A stretch of DNA of 64,000 nucleotides from Nitrospira japonica (GTDB lineage: Bacteria; Nitrospirota; Nitrospiria; Nitrospirales; Nitrospiraceae): assembly GCF_900169565.1 (NCBI RefSeq), contig NZ_LT828648.1, positions 3,632,501 through 3,696,500 of the forward strand. Reading direction: 5' to 3'. The notes under the pieces were generated by a model. The model ran no database searches and was not told the origin of the DNA. It saw nothing but the letters and a program-made list of their open reading frames with translations. This document shows positions 3,643-49,712 of the stretch, piece by piece (positions within the stretch are counted from its first letter, which is position 1; every line of letters begins with the position of its first letter). The position numbers and the translations under genes were made by a program.

Positions 3643-5163
3643 CTAGACCACGCAAGATGGTGAGGGGAGCAACACCACAGCGATCGCTAAGGTAGACGCT
3701 CCAACCAACATGAGTAAGGGGTCCAGTGGTGCGTTGAATGTCAACACGCGAAGTCCTTGAGCTAGGAAGAACCCAAGCAAGCCAAGGCCGAGAGACAATA
3801 ATCGTCCAGGGCCATGGGGCAATTCTAGAAACGCAAACCTGCTCGCGATTCCCAACGGGAAAATCAAGACCGAATAAACCAACCACTTGAATGTCTCCCC
3901 TAGGCCACGAATGAGCATATCGCTGACGGAGAGTTGTTGCTGGACGACCATCCGCGCATGCTCTCTACCGTTGACATACAGCATCGTCACTCCGTCGCGA
4001 TAGACCGCCACCAAATGCTGCACGGAGCGATCGAGGGGAGAGTCTACGGTCGTTAAAGCGGGGTGTGCGCCGTTACGTCCCGACACCGGTGTACGTAACC
4101 GAAACACGATCTCCCTATTTTGCTGTGCGAGAGTAAAGTTTCGATCATATGGATCAATCGAGTAAGAGACGATTCGAGCCGGGCCACCCTGGTTTAGCTC
4201 GCCGGACGCAACCCAGGTCTCCAGCGATAGCTCTTTCTGATACGTAAGCGGCATGTCGGCGAGTTTTTGAGGGGCGATGAGAGAAGACGCCCCCGACCCG
4301 CCTTTGAACAAAAGTCCGTTAGGACTCAGCCAGGTGTACTTCGCCTTCTCACTGATCTGGAGATCGATCGGAGGCCTCAATGCGGATCGATCATGGACAA
4401 TCGTTCCATGCTGCTCGGTGAAATCGTAATAAAAGACCAGGTCCTCCTGGATTCGTTTCGTATGCGCATCGACCCCATATCCAGCAGAAAAGTTCGTCCA
4501 GACTGCATCGGCGGTTAACGCCCGATCATATAAAGCGGCCAGATATATCGCACCCTGCCAGGGACGGTCCAGGGTTCCCTCGTTCCCGAGAAACAAACGA
4601 TAGGAGGAGTTCCAGTTGCGAAAGTCACGGGGCACGGTCAAGGGCATCCCGATTGCCACGGCTAGTAACACAACATACACGCCCGCCATCGTTCCTGCCA
4701 CAGGCCTCCTCCAAACGCGCTGCCAACGACTGGCCTTCAATGTCGGAAGAGCCGCTAGGAAAAGCACTCCTGCGAGACCTCCCACTACGCCGCCCAACCA
4801 ATTGCAAAGAATGTCTGCTACGGAAGGTGCACGTGGAAGAAACACCTGCGCCGTCTCTACGAAACCGCTGAGCAACACTGAAACGCCGGAAATAAGTAAT
4901 AGTTTGAACCGCCAGCCACGCGAGTACGTTTGAGGTAACAGAACGATCAAGAAGCCGCAGGGAATGAAATAGAGAATGTTAGTCCAGATATCCCATAGCG
5001 TCACGCGGGAAATACCCGAGAATCCCTCGAACTTGTCTTGGTAGATGGACCTGAATGAATCGGCGTCGCCAAGAGAGAAGGTGAATGGTGCTAGGCCGAA
5101 CAGCACGATATACAGCACATATGCGATCAGCAACCCCACTACGATCACGGGGTAAAACCCCAC
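3643..5163 (-). CDS. VanZ-family membrane protein with embedded LamG/concanavalin-like domain
   Basis: The protein has 506 residues. The first 180 residues hold about five membrane helices with VanZ-like features (FIPCGFLIVLLP; ETAQVFLPRAPSVADILCN). Residues about 200-400 form a soluble, probably periplasmic, LamG/concanavalin A-like glucanase fold (FYYDF, LSLETWV, HLVAVYRDG, LYVNGRE). Two or three further helices close the C-terminus. VanZ-like proteins are common beside exosortases but their role is unproven; the LamG part suggests binding of a glycan. It overlaps the exosortase gene by 19 bases, suggesting coupled synthesis. The exact biochemical role is unknown. The 175 bp downstream, before the aminotransferase, show no gene. 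Confidence 0.85.
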   Translation of the reverse strand: MGFYPVIVVGLLIAYVLYIVLFGLAPFTFSLGDADSFRSIYQDKFEGFSGISRVTLWDIWTNILYFIPCGFLIVLLPQTYSRGWRFKLLLISGVSVLLSGFVETAQVFLPRAPSVADILCNWLGGVVGGLAGVLFLAALPTLKASRWQRVWRRPVAGTMAGVYVVLLAVAIGMPLTVPRDFRNWNSSYRLFLGNEGTLDRPWQGAIYLAALYDRALTADAVWTNFSAGYGVDAHTKRIQEDLVFYYDFTEQHGTIVHDRSALRPPIDLQISEKAKYTWLSPNGLLFKGGSGASSLIAPQKLADMPLTYQKELSLETWVASGELNQGGPARIVSYSIDPYDRNFTLAQQNREIVFRLRTPVSGRNGAHPALTTVDSPLDRSVQHLVAVYRDGVTMLYVNGREHARMVVQQQLSVSDMLIRGLGETFKWLVYSVLIFPLGIASRFAFLELPHGPGRLLSLGLGLLGFFLAQGLRVLTFNAPLDPLLMLVGASTLAIAVVLLPSPSCVV

Positions 5164-6131
5164 AGTTGTACAGAAAGGGGAGCGATCGCCAGAACCGAAA
5201 GCGAGACAAGAGCCATGACGGCGGCTTGCTTCATGACATGAGAACCACGATCACTGTTAGCAGAAGACCCAAGGAATACGACGTTCTTGGTCTCCTCCCA
5301 TCGGAGAGCGCACCAAAACAGCAGCGGCATGGTAAGACCATAGATGGTATAGCTGAAGATTCGATGGTCTGCGCCTTCGGCGACGCCCATGTAATCGCCC
5401 ATAATAATGCCATAGGCCCGGATACCATTTGCGATCATCAATATCACGGCACTGATCCCCAGAAAGGTGAAGCGGCGAACTGGTTGTTGATAGACCAGTG
5501 TCGCAAAGGCGTAGCTGAGGGCCAAGCCGGGGAGCAGATAGCGCAATCCACCGCAGTCGGGTGCAACCTCCCAAGTGCCTGATGCGATCGTAATCCGGTA
5601 TTCTTGAATGAGATAGGGAACGTCGACGAGCCGGAGTCCTCCCAAGATGAACAGAGTCGTGAAGTCCTGAAGCCACGGCTCAATCGAAGTTCCGACAGGC
5701 AACATGAAGATGAGAAGCCCTAACGGCCATGAAATAGCTCGAGCAATGGTTGTTCCCAGAAGAGTCCAGACCAGACCTGGCAATGATGCAATGACCGCCA
5801 GCTGTTCCAGCCAAATCAGGTTTAGGCGGTGTCCCACCAACCAAGCAGCACCGATTGCAGAGAGTGCGACGACCCCCCAAGCACTGGGTTCTGGAGTCAG
5901 AGGTAACCACGCTTGCCGGCAGCACCACACTAAATAGCCAGTCACGGGCAACATGAGAAACCCGTGTGCGAACGTTCTGGAGCTCGACCAGGCGGCTACC
6001 AACGATTCCACTGTGGGCCAGAACAAGCCAATGACGCAGACCGTCGTCGCTAGAACGATCAGTCCTATCACTTGCCATTCCCTGGAGGCCAGCCTGACGA
6101 CCGCCGCGGGCTTGATCAATCGAGCATCCAT
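5145..6131 (-). CDS. xrtA: Exosortase (XrtA/EpsH-like), without EpsI domain
   Basis: This 328-residue multi-pass membrane protein is a transpeptidase-type protease that cuts PEP-CTERM tails and anchors the proteins at the envelope. The catalytic triad is visible: Cys193 in APDCGGLRYLLP, Arg238 in NGIRAYGII and His256 in ADHRIFSY. The usual Ser after Cys is Gly. The NGIRAY and DHRIF contexts fit XrtA best. Many XrtA proteins carry a C-terminal EpsI (DUF3485) domain; here about 30 hydrophobic residues resembling its start remain, and the protein then ends inside the overlapping VanZ gene. A short PEP-CTERM protein is encoded directly upstream. Confidence 0.92.
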   Translation of the reverse strand: MDARLIKPAAVVRLASREWQVIGLIVLATTVCVIGLFWPTVESLVAAWSSSRTFAHGFLMLPVTGYLVWCCRQAWLPLTPEPSAWGVVALSAIGAAWLVGHRLNLIWLEQLAVIASLPGLVWTLLGTTIARAISWPLGLLIFMLPVGTSIEPWLQDFTTLFILGGLRLVDVPYLIQEYRITIASGTWEVAPDCGGLRYLLPGLALSYAFATLVYQQPVRRFTFLGISAVILMIANGIRAYGIIMGDYMGVAEGADHRIFSYTIYGLTMPLLFWCALRWEETKNVVFLGSSANSDRGSHVMKQAAVMALVSLSVLAIAPLSVQLWGFTP

Positions 6132-6804: not shown

Positions 6805-7326
6805 CTACTTAGTTGGAGAACCGTGGGCACTTGAGCATCGGGAAGCCTGAGCGAAGCATTCCGCGGGTCCACAAAGAGATACGGAAGATGTCGCTGTAAC
6901 GCTGGCCGCTAACGCAACAGCGGGAGAATCGATGTGCCCCTTGGCACCCTTGACCCATCGAAGCCGAGCGGAACGAGTCGACAAGCCTTCCCGCTCCCAA
7001 ACGTACCGGACCATGCCAGGCGTGACACTGACGCCATCCAGCGTCATTTGTCGAGCGAGCCGCACATAGCTGACGGTCGGATTCGAGTGAGTTTTCAAGA
7101 GGATTTGCCGCTCCATCAAAGCTGGCGTACGGTTGGGCATGACCGGTTTACGACGGATCTTTGGCGCCAACCCGTCTCTGCCCTGCGTGTTGAGGGTCCT
7201 TCTCAGCGCGTAGTACTGGGATCGGCTGACTCCGGACAGCCTGCAAGCTTTGGCGACGTTCTTGAGTTCAGCGGCTATGGCAAGGATGCTCAACTTCGCC
7301 CTGATCACCCGTTCCCGGCTTGTCAT
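6805..7326 (-). pseudogene. Truncated IS481-like transposase remnant
   Basis: Residues 1 to about 130 resemble the N-terminus of IS481-family transposases: helix-turn-helix (VAKACRLSGVSRSQYYALRR), a basic linker (KIRRKPVMPNRTPA) and VRYVWEREGLSTRSARLRW. Full transposases are about 300-350 residues with a DDE catalytic domain. Here the frame runs into about 40 unrelated residues and stops at 173, so the catalytic domain is gone. It is a decayed insertion inside the exopolysaccharide locus; a domesticated DNA-binding role cannot be excluded. The flanking 200 bp (7327-7534) hold no convincing gene. Confidence 0.7.
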
Positions 7327-8679: not shown

Positions 8680-9624
8680 CTAGCTTCGGCCATTGGTATG
8701 AAAAATCTTATGCCAGAGCCACCTTCGCTCGAGCGCATTTCTCTCCGCCGTCGTAATGACGTGTGAACCTCTGACATGGCGGACATAATCGAGCAGTGTC
8801 CGGACCGGGACGAACCACCCGTTCATGCGGCTGATGCGTTCCAGAAGAAATTTGAATCGGCTGTTCAGTTCGCCATTGACAAAAAAGCCCGAGGCCAGAT
8901 GCGTATACATGATGCAGGCGCCCCCTTCCAGGGCCAATCTGTCTTGATTGGACTCGCACAATGTTTCGGTGAAGGAGTCAACTCCGCGCCCTTCCGAGGC
9001 GGCAAACCAATAATTCACGTAAGGCCGCAGGGCATCATGATAAGGCATGACAGGACATGCCTTTAGCGTGTTGATATCATCCAAGGTGAAGTTGCGAACA
9101 TATCTGATGTTGTCTTTGCAGAGATCGCCCCAAAACAGAGGGCTTGTTTCAATATGGCCTTCAAACGTCTGGCTTTGACCGTTCGGACGCAGATGAAGCA
9201 AGTCATAAATGACTCGCTGAATTCCCGATAAGCGGGCACGCCCCCAATATATGCCCTCATAGCATCCGGTATGATTGGCGAAAGAATTGGGATAGTGGTT
9301 GAACAAGCGACGAAACGTCTCAAGGCCTCGCCGCGTCTCCTCTCGTACGGACGTATGATAGGTGACATTGTGGAGCGCGATCTCAAAGCCGTCGTCCTGC
9401 AGGTCCTGCATCCATCGGAGATAAGGCTGATCCTCGCACGTAGTGCCGCCTATCCGAGGCGTGCAGTTGCCTTTGATGGGCCAGACGGCCTTTGTAGTAC
9501 GCAGCCCCAGGTCTCCTATGAAAGAATAGAGCGCCGCTACGTTTTCGACGGTGTCACAATCGGGATCGTCGAAAATCGTGAAGGCAAAGTCTTTTCCGTC
9601 AGGCCACACTATCCTTTGAGGCAT
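8680..9624 (-). CDS. NodB-like polysaccharide deacetylase family protein
   Basis: The protein has 314 residues with a divergent carbohydrate-esterase-4 (NodB) fold. The start of the catalytic barrel shows FTIFDDPDCDT (residues 15-25, metal-binding Asp candidates) and later ALHNVTYH with His candidates. There is no signal peptide, as in many exosortase-locus deacetylases. It probably removes N- or O-acetyl groups from a sugar or lipid-linked intermediate. It is about 25 bp from the start of the FemAB-like gene, so co-transcription is likely. The substrate is unknown. The 137 bp upstream show no gene. Confidence 0.72.
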   Translation of the reverse strand: MPQRIVWPDGKDFAFTIFDDPDCDTVENVAALYSFIGDLGLRTTKAVWPIKGNCTPRIGGTTCEDQPYLRWMQDLQDDGFEIALHNVTYHTSVREETRRGLETFRRLFNHYPNSFANHTGCYEGIYWGRARLSGIQRVIYDLLHLRPNGQSQTFEGHIETSPLFWGDLCKDNIRYVRNFTLDDINTLKACPVMPYHDALRPYVNYWFAASEGRGVDSFTETLCESNQDRLALEGGACIMYTHLASGFFVNGELNSRFKFLLERISRMNGWFVPVRTLLDYVRHVRGSHVITTAERNALERRWLWHKIFHTNGRS

Positions 9625-9761: not shown

Positions 9762-11087
9762 TCAAGGAAATACATACTCATAGGCACCGATATCGTGCTG
9801 CGCACCCTGAGGTCGGCGAACTCTGGCAAAATCATCTGTCACCTCGCTCAATGATGTACCCGTGTCAATCGCAGGACTTCCTTGTTGCAGAGAAAAATCA
9901 TGTGAGGCCGCATTTTTGAACTTTGGATCGATCAATAAGTTGGTTAGCAAGACCATCCCTTTGTCCGTTCCATCACTGGAAATGTTGGTTGGATTTTGAT
10001 AGACGATGTTGTTTGTGATCGCGGTATCTGTTGGAGCGTTGCTGAGCAGAATGCCAAACCGTCCATTGTTAACGATCGTATTGTTATACACTTTGGCCCC
10101 GGTCAGGCTTCCGTTCGCTGCATCGATGTTGATGCCTGCGATCTCGTTCGCATAGCTGATATTGTTGTAGAGGATATTCCCATTCCCTCCTCGCAGGACC
10201 GCAAAGCCGATGTAGTTGTTGTACGCGATGTTGTTATAAATCTGATTCCCCGTTCCAGAACTGGTGAAAAAACCGGCTGACCATCGATCGGGGTCGAGGT
10301 CCTTGCTATTGTCGTGGAAGATGCTGTTGCGAACTACATTATTGAACACGTTCCCGCTGGGCGTGTCATAGAATTTTCCGCCGTTGCCCGCATTGTTGTA
10401 CACCTCGCACCCATCGATCAAATTACTGTCGGTCGTGATATAGAACCCGTGGAAGTTGTCGTCGGGGACGCCGTTGGTATAGCCATTGTCGTGCACTTTG
10501 AGGTTGATAAATTCATTAAATCGAGTCGCCCCGTTGGAATTGAACGACAAGATGACGCCATTGGACTTTCCATTCTTGATTTCACCGTTGGCGAATCGCA
10601 CGTGGTGCGCGCCCCCGTTGAGGCCAATGACATCGCTCTCCGCATTGGACCCGTCGAAGATAATGCCGTCAAAGATCACATACTGGATGTAGGGATGAGC
10701 AAGATTGACTACCGCCGGGCCAGCTCCGGGTCGCATCGTCACAACCTGGCCAGGTACGGCCGCAATCATGACCGGCTTGTTCCAGGAACTCCCGCTAGGA
10801 ATAGTACTCTCATTGCTATCGAGTCTCTCTGCGTACGTTCCACCTGCGATGTAGAGTGTATCGCCAGAAGTCAATACACTGATTCCATGGCGAATTGTCT
10901 GGAAAGGACTCGTCCGTTCTCCTGAGTTTGAATCATTTCCCGTTGTAGCGACATAGTAGACTGAGCCGTTGGATTGACTAACGGATTGGGATGAGTCGGA
11001 CGGTGCGCAACCTCCCAGGTAGACGATCGCGAGGATGATCACTCGGGCGACGGCATGATCGCAGACTATCCTCAGGGTTGCAGTCAT
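9762..11087 (-). CDS. Parallel beta-helix lipoprotein (minus-strand paralogue)
   Basis: The protein has 441 residues with a lipoprotein signal (YLGGC, Cys27). It then has YYVATTGNDSNSG, DTLYIAGGTY and a long series of right-handed beta-helix coils rich in Asn (YNNIAYNNYIGF, VYNNTIVNNG), ending PAIDTG and DIGAYEY. This fold is typical of polysaccharide lyases, epimerases and surface glycan-binding proteins; no catalytic residues can be named with confidence. It is exported and likely anchored by lipid. The central coding part is nearly identical, in inverted orientation, to the plus-strand gene beginning at 13911; only the export signals and termini clearly differ. Confidence 0.85.
   Translation of the reverse strand: MTATLRIVCDHAVARVIILAIVYLGGCAPSDSSQSVSQSNGSVYYVATTGNDSNSGERTSPFQTIRHGISVLTSGDTLYIAGGTYAERLDSNESTIPSGSSWNKPVMIAAVPGQVVTMRPGAGPAVVNLAHPYIQYVIFDGIIFDGSNAESDVIGLNGGAHHVRFANGEIKNGKSNGVILSFNSNGATRFNEFINLKVHDNGYTNGVPDDNFHGFYITTDSNLIDGCEVYNNAGNGGKFYDTPSGNVFNNVVRNSIFHDNSKDLDPDRWSAGFFTSSGTGNQIYNNIAYNNYIGFAVLRGGNGNILYNNISYANEIAGINIDAANGSLTGAKVYNNTIVNNGRFGILLSNAPTDTAITNNIVYQNPTNISSDGTDKGMVLLTNLLIDPKFKNAASHDFSLQQGSPAIDTGTSLSEVTDDFARVRRPQGAQHDIGAYEYVFP
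9982..10426. repeat. Inverted repeat, left copy (445 bp, 1 mismatch)
   Basis: Aligned by eye with the reverse complement of 14641-15085: the two differ at a single base (A versus G in a Gly codon). Outside this tract similarity continues without gaps to about 10860 on one side and past 9930 on the other, but with many more differences. That boundary is what a recent gene-conversion tract would leave. Confidence 0.95.
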
Positions 11088-11137
11088 CCGAGCCCAAAAG
11101 GGATCATTTCAACGCAAGGGGCATGGGGGAGGATGAA

Positions 11138-12043
11138 TCAAGAAAGTCCAGAAGTCCGTTTACGGATTGAGCCTCGATTGACACTAGGAAGCTCGAACTC
11201 AGGCCAAACTTGGGAAGCGAGCATATCCTGCATACGCTGTCCTCCAAATTCATGCACAAATGAGTTGAAGCGCCGTTCAAAATATCTCCGGCCTGCTCCT
11301 TGGTGCCATCGGACACTCAACGGAAGCGAGATCGGAATCTCCTCAAGTTCCCATACGTCGAACTCATAGGGATGGCAGTAAAAGACGAACGGAGCAGTCT
11401 TCATCACCTGCCGCGCCAGCGAACGAGTCAGAAACCCGGGCAGCAGTCGATGGTATCCCCCGCCGCCGACAGGCCAGTTTTTCCCTAACATCTGAAACGT
11501 CGCCAATGGAGCCTCTTGAATGGTACGACCGTTCGCCAGCTTCACACGCACCGGCGCACCTGGCCAATCAGGAATTCCATACCGGACGACTCGAACCGGC
11601 ACAACACTGGAATCGTACTGAAAGCCTGCTTCCGCCAGTGCATCAAATGCCCATAGAGTGTTTTCGACTATCGAAAAGTCCGGAGCGCGATATCCCACTA
11701 CAGGCTCTCCGGTAATCTGCTCCAACAGATCCTTTGACCGCCGAACATCCGCCAGAAACTCGTCTGGTGACAACTGCGCAATCTCCATATGTCCATATCC
11801 ATGGCACGCCACTTCGTGCCCATCGGCTTGGATTTCCTTGACAAGATAGGGAAAACGTTCGGCGAGTTTGCCAAGTATAAACATCGTTGCCCGCACGTTC
11901 GCGTTACGAAGAATCCGGAGCACACGCCGCGTATTGCCCACAGCCCGGTCCGTAATCGGAAGATCACGATTCCAGGTCGATTGCGGCCAGTCCTCGACGT
12001 CGATCGAGATGACCGGAGGCCCGCAGGTCAAGGTTTTACGCAT
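11138..12043 (-). CDS. Exosortase-locus polysaccharide deacetylase (NodB + DUF3473)
   Basis: The protein has 301 residues from the chosen ATG (MRKTLTC). Motifs are ISIDVEDW (catalytic and metal Asp), HGYGHMEIAQ, YRAPDFSI and a late HPYEFD, the pattern of the PEP-CTERM-locus subfamily of polysaccharide deacetylases. There is no signal peptide, so action on a cytoplasmic lipid-linked or nucleotide-linked substrate is likely. The frame is open further upstream, but that part lies inside the methyltransferase gene; the chosen start overlaps it by 16 bases. It is the last gene of a tightly overlapping three-gene set with a GT2 and a methyltransferase. Confidence 0.88.
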   Translation of the reverse strand: MRKTLTCGPPVISIDVEDWPQSTWNRDLPITDRAVGNTRRVLRILRNANVRATMFILGKLAERFPYLVKEIQADGHEVACHGYGHMEIAQLSPDEFLADVRRSKDLLEQITGEPVVGYRAPDFSIVENTLWAFDALAEAGFQYDSSVVPVRVVRYGIPDWPGAPVRVKLANGRTIQEAPLATFQMLGKNWPVGGGGYHRLLPGFLTRSLARQVMKTAPFVFYCHPYEFDVWELEEIPISLPLSVRWHQGAGRRYFERRFNSFVHEFGGQRMQDMLASQVWPEFELPSVNRGSIRKRTSGLS

Positions 12044-12684
12044 ACGTGGTAATCCATGCCGGCGCCCGGAATTTTTCTCACTTCCACGGAACGGAATCCT
12101 GCGGCCTTGCAGAGCCTCTCGATGTCCGATTCGGTATAGAAGTAGACGGGGCACCGTCTGAGACGGTAACGCACTCTCCTAAACGGCGTGCGAAACCAAT
12201 GTTTGCTAGGAAAGGAGATAACGGCTGACCGTCTAACAACCGGTTTTAGTGCGGTTAAAAAGGAAGCGGCATCCTCGACATAGTCCATCACGCCCATGAC
12301 AATCGCGTGATCATGAGGTGTCACTGGTGCTCCGGGAAATTTGTCCTCTACCAAAATGCATCGTTCGTCGGCAAACCCACTGTTTCGAACACGAAGACGT
12401 CCAAGAGTCAGCATGTTTGGCGCCGGATCTATGCCCGTCACCAGGGAAGCGCCACGCTTGAGCGCCTCAGTGATGTAGGGTCCTGATCCACATCCGATAT
12501 CCACAATGGATTGCCCTCGTATGTTATCGAGAGCATCAAAAGTGAGTGTGTATCGTATGAACATGTCGCTTCGGAAGGTGCAGTCGACCCAGCGCATGAA
12601 TGCATTGCGCTTTTCATCGTAAATCGTATCGAACGTGTCCGCGAAGCCGTTAAAGAAGGTCGCAGCACTAGGTTCTTGACGCAT
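12028..12684 (-). CDS. Class I SAM-dependent methyltransferase
   Basis: The protein has 218 residues. The SAM-binding motif I is VDIGCGSGPYITEA, followed by TGIDPAPNML and a motif around VMGVMDYVEDAASFL. Its N-terminus (FFNGFADTFDTIYDEK) is typical of Methyltransf_11/25-type enzymes in glycan clusters. It presumably methylates a sugar or lipid-linked sugar; the acceptor is unknown. AAAGGAGA precedes the ATG, which lies inside the end of the upstream GT2 gene (17-base overlap). Confidence 0.88.
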   Translation of the reverse strand: MRQEPSAATFFNGFADTFDTIYDEKRNAFMRWVDCTFRSDMFIRYTLTFDALDNIRGQSIVDIGCGSGPYITEALKRGASLVTGIDPAPNMLTLGRLRVRNSGFADERCILVEDKFPGAPVTPHDHAIVMGVMDYVEDAASFLTALKPVVRRSAVISFPSKHWFRTPFRRVRYRLRRCPVYFYTESDIERLCKAAGFRSVEVRKIPGAGMDYHVCVKP

Positions 12685-13711
12685 GACATTCTCCTTTCAT
12701 GTGAGACGGGGACGAAACCACGGGGCGACGGCTGCTCACAGCCGCCCAGGTAAAACCGGTGGCATAAGCCGTATGTATGATCGAAGCGGCGACTGGCACG
12801 AGAAGGCCGATCCTCCACCCACTCGTTCGCACTAGACCCACACCTACTGCGGTAAGGATTCCTCCGTAGATAAAGGGCAGAAACGCTGCGGTCAGCCGCC
12901 ACCAACTAGGGAGCAGAAGTCCTCCAACCAAAGTTATGCAGGAGAGCAACAGAAAACACGGAGGAACAATCTGCCGAAAAGCCGATGGAAGACGGTGTTT
13001 TCTTAGCACCGCCACACGCCAATAACCATATTGGAAATATTGTCGGAATAGCTCAGACGGCGTTTCCCGCACGAAGTAAGTACATTGCGCTTTGGGTGAA
13101 ATGAAGACTTTTTCTCCATGCAACGCGACACGATAGTTGAGCTCATCATCCTGATTGCGAATTAAACTCGGATCATACAGCCCGATCTTGTCAAAGACGG
13201 CCTTACGAAACATGGGAAAACAGGCGCCCTCTGCATATCCCTCGTAGTTGGGATATCTGTGTTTTGCATTACCGATCCCAACGGGGTGCGCCATGACCGC
13301 AGCGACGGCACGCCCAAATAGTCCCCGCCCCTTGCTGATAATCGGTCCTCCAACGCAACAGGCCTCGGGATGGGCGGCTAGAAGTTCGGTGCAGGTACGC
13401 ACGTATGTGGGCGCATACTCCGTATGGGCACCCAAGATGGCGACATGCTGACCACGAGCTGCCTCAATACCGATGTTGAACGCGCAGGGTGTAGAACGGG
13501 AGGGATTGTCGACGACTCGGAGGTTGGTATTAGGCTTCGCGAGTCGCGCAAGGATTTCCCGAGTTCCGTCATCAGACATTCCATCGACGACCACCACCTC
13601 GAAATCCGTGGGCGGGAAATCTTGAGCAAGTATCGAGCGTATGCAAAGCTCTATGTACCGGCTCTCATTCCTACAAGGAACGATGATTGACACTAAAGGC
13701 ATTGTATTCAC
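12668..13711 (-). CDS. Family 2 glycosyltransferase with C-terminal membrane helices
   Basis: The protein has 347 residues. It begins VSIIVPCRNESRYIELC, with VVVDGMSDDGT for nucleotide binding and a later ILGAHTEY segment in place of the usual DxD (LGAHTEYAP is common in exosortase-locus GT2s), followed by RNQDDELNYR. The C-terminal 100 residues hold about three membrane helices, anchoring it at the inner membrane, where it would add a sugar to a lipid-linked chain. It is first in the three-gene cassette that sits between the inverted beta-helix genes. Confidence 0.9.
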   Translation of the reverse strand: MNTMPLVSIIVPCRNESRYIELCIRSILAQDFPPTDFEVVVVDGMSDDGTREILARLAKPNTNLRVVDNPSRSTPCAFNIGIEAARGQHVAILGAHTEYAPTYVRTCTELLAAHPEACCVGGPIISKGRGLFGRAVAAVMAHPVGIGNAKHRYPNYEGYAEGACFPMFRKAVFDKIGLYDPSLIRNQDDELNYRVALHGEKVFISPKAQCTYFVRETPSELFRQYFQYGYWRVAVLRKHRLPSAFRQIVPPCFLLLSCITLVGGLLLPSWWRLTAAFLPFIYGGILTAVGVGLVRTSGWRIGLLVPVAASIIHTAYATGFTWAAVSSRRPVVSSPSHMKGECHASRT

Positions 13712-13800
13712 AGCAATTTTCGGTATGCTGAGTCGTACAGAGTGTAGGTAATTTGCAACAATGCGCTGTTAAGGTTCAGGCTCGGATCGTGGCTTCCCCC

Positions 13801-13817
13801 ATAGCAATTGCTATAAT
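13801..13817 (+). promoter_or_regulatory. Palindrome merged with a TATAAT box upstream of the plus-strand beta-helix gene
   Basis: ATAGCAATTGCTAT (13801-13814) is a perfect 14-bp palindrome whose end is part of a perfect -10 hexamer TATAAT (13812-13817). No good -35 box lies 16-18 bp upstream, so the promoter may need an activator, or the palindrome may be an operator covering the -10 region. The start codon is about 95 bp downstream. Confidence 0.4.
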
Positions 13818-13862
13818 ACCCAAAGAGAGGATGTGGCATTGATTTTGCTCCTGAATCGACAG

Positions 13863-13878
13863 GGCTAGCCCCCTAGCC
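13863..13878 (+). promoter_or_regulatory. Small leader hairpin before the plus-strand beta-helix gene
   Basis: GGCTAG-CCCC-CTAGCC forms a perfect 6-bp stem with a 4-nt loop in the presumed 5' leader, 22 bp before the ribosome-binding site. It could affect mRNA stability or translation; function is not known. Confidence 0.3.
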
Positions 13879-13910
13879 GATCTCGTGGTTATGGACTACA
13901 GGAGTACGAT

Positions 13911-15356
13911 ATGCACAACCCATCCTTCACGAATGAACCATGTTCGCACCGCGCCAGATACTTTCAAATGAATGTGACGCCTTGGCTTGAAGAGTCGAAG
14001 AGAAGTCACCTCACACGGATCGCCAGGCTCGGCTGCATTCGTGTGTTTGTCTTGGGGGTTACTTTGTTCGCCGGAACAATCGCTGAGGCAGCAACCTATT
14101 ACGTAGCGACCAATGGCAGCGACAGCCGTACGTGCGGTGTTGCGACCAATGCCTCCAATGCAAAGCGTACAATTGGGAGCGCGGTTGGCTGTCTTATGCC
14201 TGGCGATACGCTCTACATTGCCGGCGGAACCTATGTTGAGAGACTCGATAGCAACTCAATGACGATTCCGGCAGGGACATCATGGACACAAGCAGTCAAA
14301 ATTGCGGCTTCACCTGGCCAAGTTGTGACGATGCGACCCGGAGCTGGCCCGGCGGTAGTCAATCTTGCTCATCCCTACATCCAGTACGTGATCTTTGACG
14401 GCATTATCTTTGACGGCTCTAATACCGGAAGCGATGTCATTGGTCTTAACGGGGGCGCGCACCACGTGCGATTCGCCAACAGTGAAATCAAGAATGGCAG
14501 GTACAATGGCATCATTTTGTCCTTCAATTATAATGGAGCGGCGCGATTCAATGAATTTATCAACCTCAAAGTGCACGACAATGGCTATACCAACGGCGTC
14601 CCCGACGACTACTTCCACGGGTTCTATATCACGACCGACAGTAATTTGATCGATGGGTGCGAGGTGTACAACAATGCGGGCAACGGCGGAAAATTCTATG
14701 ACACGCCCAGCGGGAACGTGTTCAATAATGTAGTTCGCAACAGCATCTTCCACGACAATAGCAAGGACCTCGACCCCGATCGATGGTCAGCCGGTTTTTT
14801 CACCAGTTCTGGAACGGGGAATCAGATTTATAACAACATCGCGTACAACAACTACATCGGCTTTGCGGTCCTGCGGGGAGGGAATGGGAATATCCTCTAC
14901 AACAATATCAGCTATGCGAACGAGATCGCAGGCATCAACATCGATGCAGCGAACGGAAGCCTGACCGGGGCCAAAGTGTATAACAATACGATCGTTAACA
15001 ATGGACGGTTTGGCATTCTGCTCAGCAACGCTCCAACAGATACCGCGATCACAAACAACATCGTCTATCAAAATCCAACCAACATATATAGCGATGGAAC
15101 CGATAAGAGGACCGTTTTAAAGACAAATCTATTAGTCGACCCAAAATTTAAGAATGCTGCAGCCAGAAATTTTTCCCTACAGACAGGCAGCCCTGCGATT
15201 GATGCAGGCACTGCATTGAGCGAGGTGACAACCGATTTCTCGAAAGTTCAAAGGCCGCAAGGTTCCAGCTACGATATCGGAGCATTTGAAGGTGGTGATG
15301 GCCCCACGGCCGATACAACCCCTCCTCTTCCTCCCACCAACGTACAATTGTTCTAG
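13911..15356 (+). CDS. Secreted parallel beta-helix protein (plus-strand paralogue)
   Basis: The protein has 481 residues. An extended N-terminus leads into a Sec signal (FVLGVTLFAGTIAEA, cut before ATYYVATNG), not a lipobox, so unlike its twin it should be released or surface-associated. Then come DTLYIAGGTY and the same Asn-rich beta-helix repeats as the minus-strand paralogue. It ends with a Pro/Thr linker (DTTPPLPPTNVQLF), which resembles the start of a fibronectin-type domain cut short. GGAG before the first ATG supports this start. It is the only plus-strand gene within about 49 kb, with its own leader and palindromes. Confidence 0.85.
   Translation: MHNPSFTNEPCSHRARYFQMNVTPWLEESKRSHLTRIARLGCIRVFVLGVTLFAGTIAEAATYYVATNGSDSRTCGVATNASNAKRTIGSAVGCLMPGDTLYIAGGTYVERLDSNSMTIPAGTSWTQAVKIAASPGQVVTMRPGAGPAVVNLAHPYIQYVIFDGIIFDGSNTGSDVIGLNGGAHHVRFANSEIKNGRYNGIILSFNYNGAARFNEFINLKVHDNGYTNGVPDDYFHGFYITTDSNLIDGCEVYNNAGNGGKFYDTPSGNVFNNVVRNSIFHDNSKDLDPDRWSAGFFTSSGTGNQIYNNIAYNNYIGFAVLRGGNGNILYNNISYANEIAGINIDAANGSLTGAKVYNNTIVNNGRFGILLSNAPTDTAITNNIVYQNPTNIYSDGTDKRTVLKTNLLVDPKFKNAAARNFSLQTGSPAIDAGTALSEVTTDFSKVQRPQGSSYDIGAFEGGDGPTADTTPPLPPTNVQLF
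14641..15085. repeat. Inverted repeat, right copy (445 bp, 1 mismatch)
   Basis: Partner of the left copy at 9982-10426 in opposite orientation. Paired positions add up to 25067 throughout and also in the more diverged flanks (checked near 14211 and 15138), so the whole similar region of about 1.1 kb is gap-free. Confidence 0.95.
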
Positions 15357-19630: not shown

Positions 19631-21583
19631 CTAGTTCAAATTGAGGCAAGGCACGGACATCGCCGGAAATTGATCGGGCTTTCGGCTTATTGCCAGTTGC
19701 AAGGAAAGTAGCATGATGATTCGTTGGTACAGTCCTTGTCGCGAAGTGTCGTGAGACTGTTTCCCATCACAGAAACCCTCGATGATGGGGCGATAGACCT
19801 CAGGCCTGAAGAACTCGGAAATCCGGCTGGCTCGACCGAGGAGTGCCTCCTTTAGCCGTGTTTTAAAATCGGCATCGACCCACCTGTCGACCGGTACTCC
19901 GAATCCACACTTGGACTTTCGAGCAACGGCAGGAGGTAGCCATCGCTTGGCAACTTCACGCAAGATGATCTTGCAAGTTTTGCCATGCACTTTGAGGTGG
20001 TAGGGAAGGCAGAGGCCGAGCGCAAAGAGATCTTCGTCCAGCATCGGCACCCTGACCTCAAGACTTTCCTTCATGCTCGCGTTGTCAACCTTGAACAGAA
20101 AGTCGTTACAAAGCACCAAGCGGACATTGACCTCGGTCGCAAGCGCAGACAATCGTTCAATTCTTGACGGTGTCTTGCGAAAGACATAATCCCATCGCGG
20201 TTCAAACAAGCGTCTGATCGAATCGACTTTACCCTCGTCCCAAGACAAACGCTGCAGCTCCTTACCGCGAATCCATGAATAAAGATCCTGGATGATGGCG
20301 ATATCGTCAACGCCAGAAAATTCACGCAGTCGGCTCGGGATGTGTGGGGGGATTAAGCAGAGCCGGGAAAATGGAGTCAATACAGCGGCCCCGGCCCACC
20401 ACATCGGCGAAGGGATGAGCTGGAGTCGGGCAATCCTAGCGAGTTGCCAGTAGAGATTGTAGCCGCCGAATCCCTCGTCGCCTCCATCTCCCGAAAGCGC
20501 TACGGTTACATGTTGTCGCATAAGCCGGCACACGGCGTTCAGGGCGAAGATCGACGTATCGGCAAATGGCTGGCCCGCATGCGACAGCAGATTCGTAATA
20601 CGGGTCCAAGTTCCTTTTTCTCCATCCATGTCGAGGACGGTGTGATCACTTCCGATATGGTTCGCGACCGATTTCGCTGCCCAGGTTTCGTCATAGGCGT
20701 CGTCAGAAAAACGCACGTTGAAGGTTTGTAGCCCTCCGCCGATGGCTTGCTGTGCCGCGGTGCTGACAAGGGAAGAATCGATGCCCCCGCTTAAGAGGCA
20801 GCCGAGCGGAACGTCGCTATCCAACTGCCGCTCGACCGACGAACGCAGCAGACCTTCTACCCTCCCGGCTACTTCGTCTGTTTGCATCGTCGGATCGGGC
20901 GCGACTGTCCAACGATGATGGCGCTTAATCCTCCATGTGACTTTCTGATGTTCCATCCGTGCCTCGAGGAGTTCACCTGCGTCGAGCGCCCGGATGCCTC
21001 GGTAGAATGTCTCCGGCGCCGGAATATAGAACAGTGCCGCATAGTCGTAGACCGCCTGCCTATCGATCCGAAGATCCATACCAGGCAGGTTTCGCAGTGC
21101 ATTGATTTCGCTTGCAAAGGAGAGCCGCTCTTCTTCGGGTGCGTAAAAGAGGGGTTTGATGCCGAAGCGATCCCGGGTGAGTACCAGACTATGGGATCGA
21201 GTATCATAGAGTGCGATCGCAAACATTCCACGAAGGACATTGACAAACTCCGTTCCCATCTCCTCATACAAATATGGGATGATTTCCGAGTCGGAATGCC
21301 CTGTGAAGCGATACCCTTTCCCCTCCAACCGCCGGCGCAGTTCACGATGGTTATAGATCTCTCCATTGAACACCGACCAGATGGTTCCACCCGCGTTGCT
21401 CATCGGCTGCTTGCCTGCAGGAGACAAATCAATGATGCTCAGTCGTGTGTGCACCAGTGTGGCATCCGGCAGCGATAACAGACCGTCACCATCCGGGCCC
21501 CTATGGCGCAAGGCTCGCACCATGCTCCGAGCCACTACTTCTGCATTTTCCCGATGCCCAATCCATCCCCCGATGCCGCACAT
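19631..21583 (-). CDS. asnB: Exosortase-locus amidotransferase 1 (AsnB-like)
   Basis: The protein has 650 residues. It starts at MCGIGGWIG so that Cys2 is the glutaminase nucleophile; an upstream open stretch lies in the neighbouring gene and is ignored. HRGPDGDG, FNGEIYNHRELR and SDSEIIPYLYE mark the glutaminase domain. LSGGIDSSLVSTAA is the PP-loop for ATP, and SGDGGDEGFGGY follows in the synthetase domain. Such AsnB homologues are regular members of exosortase/PEP-CTERM loci and probably amidate a carboxyl group on the polysaccharide (for example a uronic acid). The gene begins 1 base after the stop of the GT4 gene. Confidence 0.92.
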   Translation of the reverse strand: MCGIGGWIGHRENAEVVARSMVRALRHRGPDGDGLLSLPDATLVHTRLSIIDLSPAGKQPMSNAGGTIWSVFNGEIYNHRELRRRLEGKGYRFTGHSDSEIIPYLYEEMGTEFVNVLRGMFAIALYDTRSHSLVLTRDRFGIKPLFYAPEEERLSFASEINALRNLPGMDLRIDRQAVYDYAALFYIPAPETFYRGIRALDAGELLEARMEHQKVTWRIKRHHRWTVAPDPTMQTDEVAGRVEGLLRSSVERQLDSDVPLGCLLSGGIDSSLVSTAAQQAIGGGLQTFNVRFSDDAYDETWAAKSVANHIGSDHTVLDMDGEKGTWTRITNLLSHAGQPFADTSIFALNAVCRLMRQHVTVALSGDGGDEGFGGYNLYWQLARIARLQLIPSPMWWAGAAVLTPFSRLCLIPPHIPSRLREFSGVDDIAIIQDLYSWIRGKELQRLSWDEGKVDSIRRLFEPRWDYVFRKTPSRIERLSALATEVNVRLVLCNDFLFKVDNASMKESLEVRVPMLDEDLFALGLCLPYHLKVHGKTCKIILREVAKRWLPPAVARKSKCGFGVPVDRWVDADFKTRLKEALLGRASRISEFFRPEVYRPIIEGFCDGKQSHDTSRQGLYQRIIMLLSLQLAISRKPDQFPAMSVPCLNLN

Positions 21584-21584
21584 C

Positions 21585-22715
21585 TCATTCGTCCTTCCAA
21601 CCGGCCGCTTTATAGGCATCCAGCGTACGCGAGACGAGTCCATGAACGCTGAAATCCCGTTCCGCCCTTGCACGAGCATTTTCACCCATCGACTGACAGA
21701 GCAGTTGGTCCGTGAGTAGTGCGGCCGCGCGGTCGGCCAGAGCGGCATCGTCCCCAGGCGACACGACGAAGCCCGACGCGCCGTTCTCGATCAAATGCCT
21801 AACATCTCCCGCATCGGTCGCCACCACTGCTCTTCCTGCAGCCATAGCCTCCATTACGACATTCGGACATCCTTCTGCGTCAGAGGTATGGACCAGAAAG
21901 TTCGCCTTTGCCAAGAGCGTCGGAATGTCACGCACCGCTCCAAGAAACTCCAGGCAATCGGCCACGTGGAGTTCTTGCGCCTGCCCTTCTAGCATCTTGC
22001 GTAAGGGTCCCTCCCCTGCGACTTGAACCATGAATCGAAGCTTCCTTCGTTTCAGTTCCCGTACCATCGTCAACAACCGATCCCATCGCTTGATGGGCAG
22101 AAGAGACCCCACACTCAGAATAAGCGGCACTCCGCCTAACGGTGGCGGCACCTTGCTAAAGAGGTCCAGATCGACGCCATTGCGAACAACCGACAGTGTC
22201 CCGGGACGAAATATGCCAGTCGAGCGCCAGATGGTTTCTGCAGCTTGCAGATTGTTGGAGATGTGATGACGAGGAAACAGCGAACTCAACCTACCGAGCC
22301 ACGGACCAGCCTTATTTTGTTCGAAGAGAAAATTGCTCCGGATAGATCCAAGACAGATAGCCTGTGTACCTACGGCGGCGTAATACGCCGCAAAGTTCGT
22401 ATAAAAGGAATAAGAATGAATCACTTCCGGACTCAGTCGTCTCACGAGCGATCGACAATAGGACAGTTTGGCAGATGCGCCTGCTCCCGTCGGAACCGGA
22501 TGGATGGGAACCTCCAGCGCGGCAAGGTCTGAAAGATAGATGTCGTTTGGACTTGGGTTCCAGAGCATCACTGCCGGCCGATACCGCTTCCGATCGAGAA
22601 TCCGGAGGAGGTAGCACAGTTGACGCTCGAGACCTCCGCGTCCCAATTGTCCGACAAGATAGAGAAGTCGGCATGAGTGAGGCCGTAATTGAGGATCGCC
22701 AAATTCCATCATCAT
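21585..22715 (-). CDS. GT-B glycosyltransferase (family 4)
   Basis: The protein has 376 residues. The N-terminus has LLYLVGQLGRGGLERQLCYLL (acceptor-domain Gly loop), then VVRNGVDLDLF and ILSVGSLLPIKRWDRLL. The donor site is SDAEGCPNVVMEAMAAGRAVVATDAGD, the canonical EGxxNxxxEAMA of family 4. It transfers a sugar to the growing lipid-linked chain on the cytoplasmic face. It starts with three consecutive ATG-type codons, and the next gene, an amidotransferase, follows after 1 base. Confidence 0.92.
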   Translation of the reverse strand: MMMEFGDPQLRPHSCRLLYLVGQLGRGGLERQLCYLLRILDRKRYRPAVMLWNPSPNDIYLSDLAALEVPIHPVPTGAGASAKLSYCRSLVRRLSPEVIHSYSFYTNFAAYYAAVGTQAICLGSIRSNFLFEQNKAGPWLGRLSSLFPRHHISNNLQAAETIWRSTGIFRPGTLSVVRNGVDLDLFSKVPPPLGGVPLILSVGSLLPIKRWDRLLTMVRELKRRKLRFMVQVAGEGPLRKMLEGQAQELHVADCLEFLGAVRDIPTLLAKANFLVHTSDAEGCPNVVMEAMAAGRAVVATDAGDVRHLIENGASGFVVSPGDDAALADRAAALLTDQLLCQSMGENARARAERDFSVHGLVSRTLDAYKAAGWKDE

Positions 22716-26387: not shown

Positions 26388-27479
26388 CTACGCTTGCAAG
26401 GAAGCCCCCGAGACGGCTGCTTCAAAGGCCTCCACGACTGCCGCATCACTGTGATACTGGGTCACGTATCGTTGCGTATGAACGGCGATGTCATCCCGTT
26501 GGTCTGCCGAAGCGATCAGTCGTGTGATGTCCCTTACAGCTCCCACGACACCGTTCGACATCGCACCGAGACCGTATCGTTTGATAATGTCGTCCGGATC
26601 AATCTCCAGACTCACGACAGGAGTTCCGCTGGACCACGCTTGCAGGAATGTGTTGGGAAATCCCTCACTGCTCGACGTTGAAAGAAGCACGGCGGCGTTC
26701 CGAATGATTCCTTCGGCATGTTCAGGCGATACCTGCCCGCAATAGTTGACGTTCGTGAGATCCCGCAGGCGGTTCATGATTTGCTCGCTATAGCCGGCTG
26801 TCGTGCCAAACGTGCTTTGCCCGCCGCAAAGGACGAATCGCAGTGCCGGAGCCTTCCTGGCGATTTCAATCAGCAGGTCTGGCCGCTTGTGTCGGCGCAA
26901 CATGCCTATCCAAGCCACATACTTCTCTCGCATCGCATGGGGCTTTACCGGTGCTCGCGCTCCCGCAATACTTCGTACGATGTATGCCTTGCTGCGCCAT
27001 TTTGTCGGCAGCCCGGAGAGTTGCCGGCCATGTTGCAAAAAGAGTTTCTCGACTTGGGCCAGACCCCAGGCGTACAAAGGCCATAAGCGGCGTCGGCGCG
27101 TGAGGGCTTCACGGGGTTGGATGTCCGTGTCAAACCCCGCGGAAAATATTGTCCGCACGTTGCTTACTCTTGCCAGTTGAACCATAGGGCCCAACAGAGG
27201 CTGGGCGCATCGCAGATAGAACCAATTGGGTCGTTCCGACCTCAAGAATCGGAAAAGGGCTGGGAGGTAGGGTCCAATGCCGATCCCAACATAGTCCACA
27301 CCATCAATCGTTTCCCGTCTTCCTCGTTCCAAACGATGACGCGTTCCGACTTTCACCGACCAACCGGCTGCGGCCAATGCGCGCGCGAGCAACCACTGTT
27401 GGCGTTCGGCACCACCGACTGCGGACGGATCTCCCGATGCGTACTCATGGATGCCGTCATTAACGAAGGCGATCTTCAT
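26388..27479 (-). CDS. GT-B glycosyltransferase (family 4)
   Basis: The protein has 363 residues, starting MKIAFVNDGIHEYASG with the Gly loop AVGGAERQQWLLARAL. The donor side has VAWIGMLRRHKRPDLLIEIA and STSSSEGFPNTFLQAWSSGTP. The GT4 Glu of EGFPN is kept, but the following EA pair reads QA. The start ATG overlaps the stop of amidotransferase 2 (ATGA). The acceptor and donor are unknown. Confidence 0.9.
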   Translation of the reverse strand: MKIAFVNDGIHEYASGDPSAVGGAERQQWLLARALAAAGWSVKVGTRHRLERGRRETIDGVDYVGIGIGPYLPALFRFLRSERPNWFYLRCAQPLLGPMVQLARVSNVRTIFSAGFDTDIQPREALTRRRRLWPLYAWGLAQVEKLFLQHGRQLSGLPTKWRSKAYIVRSIAGARAPVKPHAMREKYVAWIGMLRRHKRPDLLIEIARKAPALRFVLCGGQSTFGTTAGYSEQIMNRLRDLTNVNYCGQVSPEHAEGIIRNAAVLLSTSSSEGFPNTFLQAWSSGTPVVSLEIDPDDIIKRYGLGAMSNGVVGAVRDITRLIASADQRDDIAVHTQRYVTQYHSDAAVVEAFEAAVSGASLQA

Positions 27480-29329
27480 AAATGGACCGATCGCGCCATC
27501 GACCACGCGAGGAAGACGAAGGGGTTCCAAAGCTCTCGTCCGATTCCCCCTTGCGACAGATTGAGTCTGTGAAGGCGCCGAAGATACCTGTAGTCAAGAC
27601 ACGATAGGTGGGCTTCGCCCCAGTCCAGCGCCGTTTCGAGCGCTACTCTCCACTGCTGCGCCAGAAAACGATCCAGTGGCACGTCAAATCCATGTTTCGG
27701 TCTGTCCCACACCTGCCTTGGGAGAATACGACGGGCGATCGGAATCAGGAGCGACTTGAGCTGTCCGCCCACAATCTTCTGATCCGCGTGAAGTGGGACA
27801 ATACGATCTATGACCGTTTCGTCCAGATAAGGAACGCGTACCTCGAGTGAGGCCAGCATGCTGGCCCGATCCGTCTTCACTAGGCAGTTTTCACTCAGAT
27901 ACGTTTCAAGGTCTGCTCGCATCAGGACATCCGTGTCGATGTGAGGGCCATAGCGTTTGGCAACGCGTTCCCATGGCTCAAAATAATCTGAAACTTCGGC
28001 CGCCTGGTAACAGTCAAATGAAAGAATTTGGCGTAAATCCTTTCTGAATACTGGAAAATCACCATATCTGACCCAGGACCATCGGAAAAGGTCTCTAGGA
28101 GGCAACATTCTCCAATATAGATGCGCCATGCCGCGGGGCCTCCACGATAGAGCGCATAGCATTCGTTCGAAAGCTCGATGGCCCGGGAAGCGCGAGTGCC
28201 GGCCTTCGCGCCACAAGTATTTTGGGTAACCACCGAAGACCTCATCGCCCCCGTCCCCCGAGAGGGCCACTTTCACGTACCCCGCCGTCATTTTGGACAA
28301 GGCATACGTTGGAACAAGTGCCGGATCGGCAAATGGCTCATCAAGCTGGCCCAGCACCGTCAGCAACATTTCGGAACCCAGGTCCTCTGCAGGAAGCACC
28401 GTATGATCCGTGCCGAACTGTCTTGCAACGAGACCGGCAATGGATGATTCATCGGCGGCAGCATCTCTGAAGGCAATCGAGAAGGATCGGACAGGCTTTT
28501 GGCTTTGCCGAGCCATGAGCGCCACAATCAGTGAGGAATCGATACCTCCGGAGAGAAATGCTCCGATCGGGACATCGCTGACCATTTGGCGCTTCACGGC
28601 CTGCTCGAGTAGCGCTTCTAGCTCGAATTCATCGGGAGAACGTGCTGATAGATGCGCAGAGGGAGGCTTCCAATAGCAATCGATTGAAGGCTTTCCCATA
28701 CCGACGCGCCATTGAAATCGCCGTCCAGGTTCAAGCTTGTATACGTCGTGAAAGATCGTGCGAGGGGATGGAATGTAATCGAATGTCATCAGATCTCGAA
28801 CCGCGACGGGGTCGATCTGTGTGAAGCCATTCAGTGCACCGAGAGACTCGAGCGTGGATGTGACGATGAGAGCACCATCTCGGCAGGTCCATGAGAGAGG
28901 CTTGATCCCCACACGGTCACGCGCTCCGAACACCACCTTCTCCATACGGTCCCAAATCACGAACGCAAACATGCCGTTCAAGTGGTAGACGACGTCTACC
29001 CCCCAATGGCGATACCCCTCCAAAAGGATTTCGGTGTCGGACTCTGTTCGGAATACGGCCCCTTCACGCTCGAGCAAACGCCGCAATTCTAAGAAATTGT
29101 AGATCTCGCCATTGAAGGCAACGACGTAGCGTCGGTCATGGCTCTCCATCGGTTGGTAACCAGTCTTGAGGTCAATGATGGACAGCCGACGGTGAAACAA
29201 CCATATATCTTTCTCACGCCATTCGCCGCACGCATCCGGCCCCCGGTGAGCCATCCGAATTGAAGCCGCCCGTGCGACATCGACGTCATATATGGGCTTG
29301 TCCTGAAACAGCGCAATAAATCCGCACAC
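27476..29329 (-). CDS. asnB: Exosortase-locus amidotransferase 2 (AsnB-like), GTG start
   Basis: The protein has 617 residues. The open frame extends upstream, but processing to a free Cys nucleophile requires the start immediately before CGFIALF; that codon is GTG and lies 1 base after the deacetylase stop, so I place the start there. HRGPDACGEW, FNGEIYNFLELR and SDTEILLEGY mark the glutaminase half; FLSGGIDSSLIVALMA and SGDGGDEVFGGYP mark the ATP-binding half. It is the second of two AsnB homologues; exosortase loci often carry two. It is probably another amidation step on the glycan. Confidence 0.9.
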   Translation of the reverse strand: MCGFIALFQDKPIYDVDVARAASIRMAHRGPDACGEWREKDIWLFHRRLSIIDLKTGYQPMESHDRRYVVAFNGEIYNFLELRRLLEREGAVFRTESDTEILLEGYRHWGVDVVYHLNGMFAFVIWDRMEKVVFGARDRVGIKPLSWTCRDGALIVTSTLESLGALNGFTQIDPVAVRDLMTFDYIPSPRTIFHDVYKLEPGRRFQWRVGMGKPSIDCYWKPPSAHLSARSPDEFELEALLEQAVKRQMVSDVPIGAFLSGGIDSSLIVALMARQSQKPVRSFSIAFRDAAADESSIAGLVARQFGTDHTVLPAEDLGSEMLLTVLGQLDEPFADPALVPTYALSKMTAGYVKVALSGDGGDEVFGGYPKYLWREGRHSRFPGHRAFERMLCALSWRPRGMAHLYWRMLPPRDLFRWSWVRYGDFPVFRKDLRQILSFDCYQAAEVSDYFEPWERVAKRYGPHIDTDVLMRADLETYLSENCLVKTDRASMLASLEVRVPYLDETVIDRIVPLHADQKIVGGQLKSLLIPIARRILPRQVWDRPKHGFDVPLDRFLAQQWRVALETALDWGEAHLSCLDYRYLRRLHRLNLSQGGIGRELWNPFVFLAWSMARSVHL

Positions 29330-29330
29330 G

Positions 29331-30158
29331 TCAAGACTCCATGGACGAAACAACATCCCCGACCGAACGCCAAACGACCTTCTGATCATTGGATGCGCGC
29401 GCGATCAGTCGTAACAGATGCTCTCTGACAGTGGCGATCCCGCTTTCCTGGCAGGATGTATCAAGCTCCCAATAATGCGTAGCGGCGCAAAATACTCCGT
29501 CCACTCGAATCGCTTGATCGAAAATACACTCATTGAGGCGAAGACTTGCCGAAGGCGTCACCGGATTGCCTGCGATTTCTTTATGGTCGCCCAGATCGAG
29601 TATCCAGGGCACACCCAATCCTCCTCGGGCACGCCACCGGCGGAGTCGAAACCATGTGATCCAGGTTGCTGGTGAAAATGGAGACCACCCCGAACGTAGT
29701 CCCGCTACGCCCCCCAAATTCAATCTCTCGCGCGCGATGGCATGCAAGCCTTGTTTCCCGATGGCATTTTTGGGCGGCACAAATACTCGAACAGGCGCAC
29801 TGAGCAGATCCTCTAGATACGCACGTCCGTGACGCACGCGTTCGGAAAGGTCCCGTCCATCGGCAAATTCCAGTTGGGAATCGGGCTGATCATGGTGATA
29901 GCCATGAAGCATGGCCTCGTATCTCCCTGCTGCGATGCCATCGCGGAGATAGTCGACCAATGCCTGATTCTCATCGAGTGGATGAATGGACCATCGCCTG
30001 CGGTACTTCTCCGGAACGCCCTTGCTGGATCCCGCACGGCAGAAAGGAATAATCGCCAGGGAAACCGGCCCGTGCTTCGTCACCTCACCATAGGCGCGCT
30101 CCAAGTCTTCCGGAGCGGTGAAAAAGCTCGTATCGTCGTCACGTATGCAGAAGTGCAC
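29331..30158 (-). CDS. NodB-like deacetylase family protein (DUF2334-like)
   Basis: The protein has 275 residues, starting MHFCIRDDDTSFF, where the three Asp provide the metal/base positions, then LHGYHHDQPDS for the HxxxH-like metal ligands, and FVPPKNAIGKQGL as the substrate-arm motif. There is no signal peptide. This is the third NodB-fold protein in the locus, and it begins a coupled run: deacetylase, amidotransferase 2, GT4, SGNH hydrolase. The substrate is unknown. Confidence 0.78.
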   Translation of the reverse strand: MHFCIRDDDTSFFTAPEDLERAYGEVTKHGPVSLAIIPFCRAGSSKGVPEKYRRRWSIHPLDENQALVDYLRDGIAAGRYEAMLHGYHHDQPDSQLEFADGRDLSERVRHGRAYLEDLLSAPVRVFVPPKNAIGKQGLHAIARERLNLGGVAGLRSGWSPFSPATWITWFRLRRWRARGGLGVPWILDLGDHKEIAGNPVTPSASLRLNECIFDQAIRVDGVFCAATHYWELDTSCQESGIATVREHLLRLIARASNDQKVVWRSVGDVVSSMES

Positions 30159-49037: not shown

Positions 49038-49673
49038 TCACAATTGATGCGACCCGAAACGTTCGTTGTACCGGTCCGGGCTCCTGTCTCTGGATAGACC
49101 ACTATAGTGGTAAGGCTGGTGTTGATTGGATTCAGGAAGAACATCACCCGTACTGACAGGAACGATGCATGACGCATCAATCTCGACCGCCACCGCTTGC
49201 TGAATCAGACTGATGCTGATCACGATCCGACAATGCTTATCTTGTCGGACGACGCGTCCTTTCACTCCTTGAAAGGGACCACTGACAACCTCCACGAGCA
49301 TTCCCTCCTTCAGAAATGGATGGACGGCGTACTGGTATTGCGCGCGATTGTTCATTACGATCATCAGTGATTCGATTTCAGGAGCGGGAATCGATTCGGG
49401 ACGGCCATTGCGGCCAATTATGCGGACTACACCTGTGGTCTGAAGGACCGGCAGGCGGGCGTCCAATGAAAACCTCGCAAAGCAGTACCCACTGAACAAA
49501 GGAAACTCGATCTTTTTCTTCCTATCCGTCCACTGTCGTAGCCGCGTCATCAAAGGCAGGAAATTTTCGATGTCCCGCCTGAGCAGTTCATCGCGCACGA
49601 CTTTCTCATGGCGTGATCTTGTCTGGAGCGCGAACCAGCGTCGGTCATCCACTTGCTCCGCCTCACTTTGCAT
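49038..49673 (-). CDS. NusG/RfaH/UpxY-family transcription elongation factor
   Basis: The protein has 211 residues. WFALQTRSRHEKVVRDEL begins the NGN domain, FPLFSGYCFARF is its RNA-polymerase-facing strand, and LVEVVSGPFQGVKGRVVR is the KOW motif. A 25-residue tail follows. It is the first gene of the long minus-strand locus, the standard place for operon-specific antiterminators (RfaH, UpxY, LoaP). It probably travels with RNA polymerase to prevent early stops over the 49-kb locus. GGAGGG precedes the ATG; an adjoining GTG is also possible. Confidence 0.9.
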   Translation of the reverse strand: MQSEAEQVDDRRWFALQTRSRHEKVVRDELLRRDIENFLPLMTRLRQWTDRKKKIEFPLFSGYCFARFSLDARLPVLQTTGVVRIIGRNGRPESIPAPEIESLMIVMNNRAQYQYAVHPFLKEGMLVEVVSGPFQGVKGRVVRQDKHCRIVISISLIQQAVAVEIDASCIVPVSTGDVLPESNQHQPYHYSGLSRDRSPDRYNERFGSHQL

Positions 49674-49712
49674 CACGCTCCCTCCATTCTCCCATCGCCC
49701 TCTCAGCGCTTC

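Follow-up and report, generated by a model that had tools for sequence, protein, structure and literature searches.

Near-identical cores in two diverged beta-helix genes of a Nitrospira japonica exopolysaccharide cluster: probable ectopic gene conversion

How two genes facing away from each other across an exopolysaccharide cassette can share an almost perfect core while differing at both ends is the question raised by a locus of Nitrospira japonica NJ1, a hard-to-culture and environmentally important nitrite oxidiser. In the window (the whole 64,000-nucleotide stretch of DNA that was analysed), gene A (9762-11087, minus strand) and gene B (13911-15356, plus strand) are divergent, with their 5' ends toward a three-gene cassette, and form together a 1,090-nt inverted repeat of 88% identity (full left arm 9778-10867, minus strand; full right arm 14200-15289, plus strand). 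The original prediction had drawn attention to 9982-10426 and 14641-15085 as reverse complements with one mismatch and with lower similarity outside. Both observations hold: the mismatch lies at 10191/14876, and at the 3' edge the identity per 50 bp drops from 100% to about 62-72%. The near-identity is longer than these 445 bp and defines a tract of 536 bp with 2 mismatches, the second at 10457/14610 (9982-10517, minus strand, in gene A; 14550-15085, plus strand, in gene B), nested in the larger repeat, with a sharp 3' edge and a graded mosaic on its 5' side. The repeat occurs genome-wide in these two copies only, the NJ1 genome being a single contig of 4,084,817 bp.

Both products match the Beta_helix profile (PF13229) and, above the curated cut-off of 25 bits, the choice-of-anchor Q profile (NF041518; 47.3 bits for A and 53.9 bits for B). 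This last domain spans residues 394-438 of A (9774-9908, minus strand), where it lies outside the tract and has diverged from its counterpart in B, residues 416-460 (15156-15290, plus strand). The export signals differ as had been predicted: going by its sequence alone, A (441 aa) carries the lipobox LGGC (residues 24-27; 11007-11018, minus strand) after a hydrophobic stretch (VIILAIVYLGGC, residues 16-27), as bacterial lipoproteins do, whereas B (481 aa) has a Sec-type N-terminus. Similar lipobox/Sec pairs recur in five relatives (G061, G084, G088, G108 and G148), as recognised by a regular expression and by eye only. B ends in a 21-residue C-terminal tail (GGDGPTADTTPPLPPTNVQLF; 15291-15353, plus strand) and tails of this kind are conserved in the family: 51 of the 58 family members compared continue for 13-25 residues past the last DIGAYE-type motif of the domain, often with the pattern P-x-x-[LV]-x-[VIA]-x, while the tail is missing in six, including A, and one could not be parsed. 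The tail pattern was found in 36/55 helix proteins versus 16/564 other ORFs, many of these 16 not being real genes. This tail is kept across genera although the protein bodies are down to about 25% identical, and it resembles the first strand of an FN3 domain with a stop directly after. That it represents a frameshifted FN3 domain was rejected, an FN3-like continuation being seen in no downstream frame. The combination of PEP motif, transmembrane stretch and basic cluster expected of PEP-CTERM proteins is found neither at the end of A (DIGAYEYVFP) nor at that of B (TTPPLPPTNVQLF); judged by their C-termini, A and B would not be PEP-CTERM substrates of XrtA.

Regarding the fold, a phmmer search with B alone against the PDB returned no match, and a structural model of B was obtained (mean pLDDT 78.7, pTM 0.79). 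Its best match is the pectate lyase Pel9A (1ru4; Foldseek 4.5e-13; VIA Z 38.9, 341 aligned residues, rmsd 2.6), followed by a PL9 rhamnogalacturonan lyase (Z 33), so that the right-handed beta-helix of polysaccharide lyase family 9 is common to the model over most of the protein. Pel9A possesses an aspartate cluster and a lysine that serve as its calcium-binding and catalytic residues. At the aligned positions A and B have no aspartate or lysine: in a profile alignment read by hand, NSDDGFDLF of Pel9A is aligned to NNAGNGGKFY of A/B, and GFKLGG to a stretch devoid of lysine. The fold is hence PL9-like while the PL9 catalytic residues are apparently missing, and the likeness does not imply lyase activity.

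The cassette has the predicted composition, as Pfam and NCBIfam matches confirmed. It comprises, all on the minus strand, a glycosyltransferase of family 2 (GT2; 12668-13711), divergent from B across 199 bp, a SAM methyltransferase (12028-12684) and a polysaccharide deacetylase of the XrtA-system type (11138-12154; TIGR03006 at 247 bits, under the cut-off of 276). It is embedded in a leftward exopolysaccharide (EPS) cluster of about 49 kb (window 1-49676) headed by a NusG-family antiterminator-like gene (49038-49676, minus strand), marked as an XrtA locus by exosortase A (XrtA; 5145-6131, minus strand) and also containing export proteins by profile matches; B is the only clear gene oriented against it. 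Among the other occupants of the cluster are two XrtA-type asparagine-synthase-like amidotransferases (19631-21748 and 27476-29389), a protein of 795 aa with FG-GAP repeats and a dockerin-like match (33514-35901) and a 314-aa protein without Pfam or NCBIfam match (8680-9624), of which a 66% identical homologue in another genome (G012) adjoins a FemAB-like gene as in NJ1. Between exosortase A and the FemAB-like gene lies the remnant of an IS481-family transposase (6805-7326; profile positions 2-117 of 284). The GC content of window 1-52000 is about 54%, versus 59% for the genome. The cluster is accessory, since nothing closely similar to the methyltransferase, the amidotransferase or the two beta-helix proteins was found in the other six genomes of the genus. 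A phage origin was rejected (no phage match; one viral contig match at 27%), the search for plasmid relatives gave only matches of about 28%, from Rhizobium, and relatives sought in the contigs of named genomes were limited to distant matches. Promoter and terminator scans yielded sites no more frequent than in shuffles.

The per-segment divergence between A and B (Nei-Gojobori counts) indicates how the two cores became alike. Over the 178 codons of the tract, dS is 0.01 and dN 0.002, and the N- and C-terminal segments flanking it are saturated (pS 0.87-0.88); two patches 5' of the tract are intermediate, with dS of 0.23 and 0.58, which implies that the genes exchanged sequence at two or more different times. 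When codon columns were permuted, none of 5000 permutations reached 536 bp with at most two mismatches, the permuted maximum being 145. A tree of the C-terminal segment pairs A with B as sisters (100/97), but with an identity of only 71-72% there and saturated synonymous sites they are paralogues older than the tract. The N-terminal tree leaves them unpaired, a separation that is not significant for this short segment (AU p = 0.22), and a four-residue insertion in B is common to two relatives (G047 and G051). A recent whole-gene duplication was rejected because synonymous divergence is saturated on either side of the tract, and protein-level selection alone because identity extends to synonymous sites. 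A and B are thus very probably old paralogues whose helix cores were homogenised by recent ectopic gene conversion. With one N. japonica strain compared, either gene may have been the donor.

Relatives of these proteins are present in 39 of the 175 genomes of the family, NJ1 counted, and similar events can be recognised among them. In an exact-run test on 34 same-genome and 1,619 cross-genome pairs, one pair (G128, direct tandem, L073 2015-5256) shares a 768-bp exact run for 88% amino-acid identity overall, and another (G055, direct, about 7 kb apart, L075 3818-13628) a 444-bp exact run for 86%, both genomes being multi-contig assemblies. Shorter excess runs were found in same-genome pairs of G110 and G106, and only 3 of the 1,619 cross-genome pairs, all at the signal peptide, had runs over three times expectation. 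The G055 pair reproduces the NJ1 pattern, with an identical core and differing signals and C-terminal regions; in the G128 pair the signal and the first 245 residues are identical and divergence starts after these. Together with the near-zero dS of the tract, its saturated flanks and the older 5' patches, these comparable tracts give good support to the recurrent gene conversion of the original prediction. As the pairs of relatives are direct repeats, the inverted layout in NJ1 is incidental and not needed for conversion. Exchange of the body also occurs between species: in a genus other than that of NJ1, G051 and G030 are 93% identical upstream, 92% in the signal and 53% in the body, compared with 68%, 77% and 90%, respectively, for G051 and G047, so that the bodies have been replaced while the promoter and the signal peptide in front of them were conserved. 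Of note, a syntenic beta-helix gene is found in six loci (L032, L033, L034, L035, L036 and L047), with promoter and signal up to 93% identical and bodies about 53% identical between species.

Could another history have left the same trace? A recent duplication of one gene, followed by the replacement of both ends of one copy from other family members, would account for the nearly identical tract, the more so as ends behave as modules in this family, and a core copied into the ends of a third gene would leave nearly the same pattern. We nevertheless hold the duplication scenario to be improbable: it requires two end replacements versus one internal event, the intermediate-age patches imply prior exchanges, and the C-terminal segments of A and B, mutually closest yet saturated, fit old paralogy followed by conversion. 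As for an assembly artefact, by which reads of two diverged copies were collapsed to one consensus, the tract may be longer than short reads, but collapse is expected only of nearly identical copies, two mismatches are retained in the tract, and its sharp edge coincides with saturated divergence; with a single-contig genome and the pattern found again in other genomes, this explanation is extremely unlikely.

The original prediction alternatively allowed for inversion between the arms, which would switch the orientation of the cassette and exchange the signal types. Such a functional switch, in which RecA-dependent or site-specific inversion of about 4 kb would flip the cassette and swap the 5' halves (lipobox/Sec), is allowed by the geometry, with 536 bp of inverted near-identity and differing signals, and RecA-dependent inversion is possible in principle. 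However, the cassette is codirectional with the cluster in four relatives (G116, G117, G104 and G082) as in NJ1, making the assembled orientation the ancestral one, and a flip would turn three genes against the NusG-headed operon. Across the loci compared, the beta-helix gene is antiparallel to the EPS genes in 24 and parallel in 11, NJ1 counted, and the antiparallel gene is often divergent from GT2. B keeps this canonical place and its tailed C-terminus; the copy that departs from the rule is A, codirectional within the operon. Among the proteins scanned from 1 to 53.7 kb no site-specific recombinase was recognised, the IS481-like fragment being the only find. Considering also that the conversion pairs of relatives are direct repeats, the supposed switch is unsupported and we regard it as very unlikely.

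For gene conversion, the following course of events can be proposed. A and B would be old paralogues from a PL9-like beta-helix family of XrtA exopolysaccharide clusters in Nitrospiraceae, B holding the conserved position and A being an extra lipoprotein-type copy in the direction of the operon. Ectopic homologous recombination, presumably RecA-type non-crossover gene conversion to judge from the mosaic, would have homogenised the helix cores at least once before the latest conversion over 536 bp, the signals at the N-termini and the anchor regions at the C-termini staying distinct. The likely consequence would be two differently addressed proteins with one carbohydrate-interacting core, which selection or drift may maintain, and inversion of the cassette would at most be a side effect of this recombination. 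On a wider scale, it is conceivable, though we consider it doubtful, that Nitrospira EPS clusters contain a recombination-driven system of modules in which a carbohydrate-interacting beta-helix core is exchanged among lipoprotein, Sec, tailed and untailed shells, the products tracking the current polysaccharide. In that case the 13-25-residue tail would serve in sorting or docking, as a so far undescribed signal; this short conserved tail and the recurring lipoprotein/Sec pairing are directly testable. The probable gene conversion by itself shows how secreted beta-helix proteins of exopolysaccharide loci can evolve, paralogues exchanging their cores while export and anchor ends are kept.

Invertible surface or capsule loci have inverted repeats around genes, together with a site-specific recombinase. 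In NJ1, in contrast, the repeats are the gene bodies themselves, no recombinase was recognised, and the single assembly displays one orientation. Closer parallels are found in gene conversion, which in bacteria leads to contiguous tracts (PMC5485169). In Salmonella, conversion between tufA and tufB likewise involves contiguous, non-reciprocal tracts in two chromosomal paralogues, but the tuf genes are housekeeping genes that are nearly identical over their whole length (PMC5485169), whereas in NJ1 only the core of anciently diverged secreted proteins is homogenised. As far as the cited account outlines it, recombination of the babA/babB type in Helicobacter pylori is also an intragenomic conversion between paralogues encoding surface or outer-membrane proteins (PMC4552749); set against that outline, the NJ1 locus, for now known from sequence, is distinguished by its place in the XrtA exopolysaccharide cluster of a nitrite oxidiser and by the PL9-like fold of its products.
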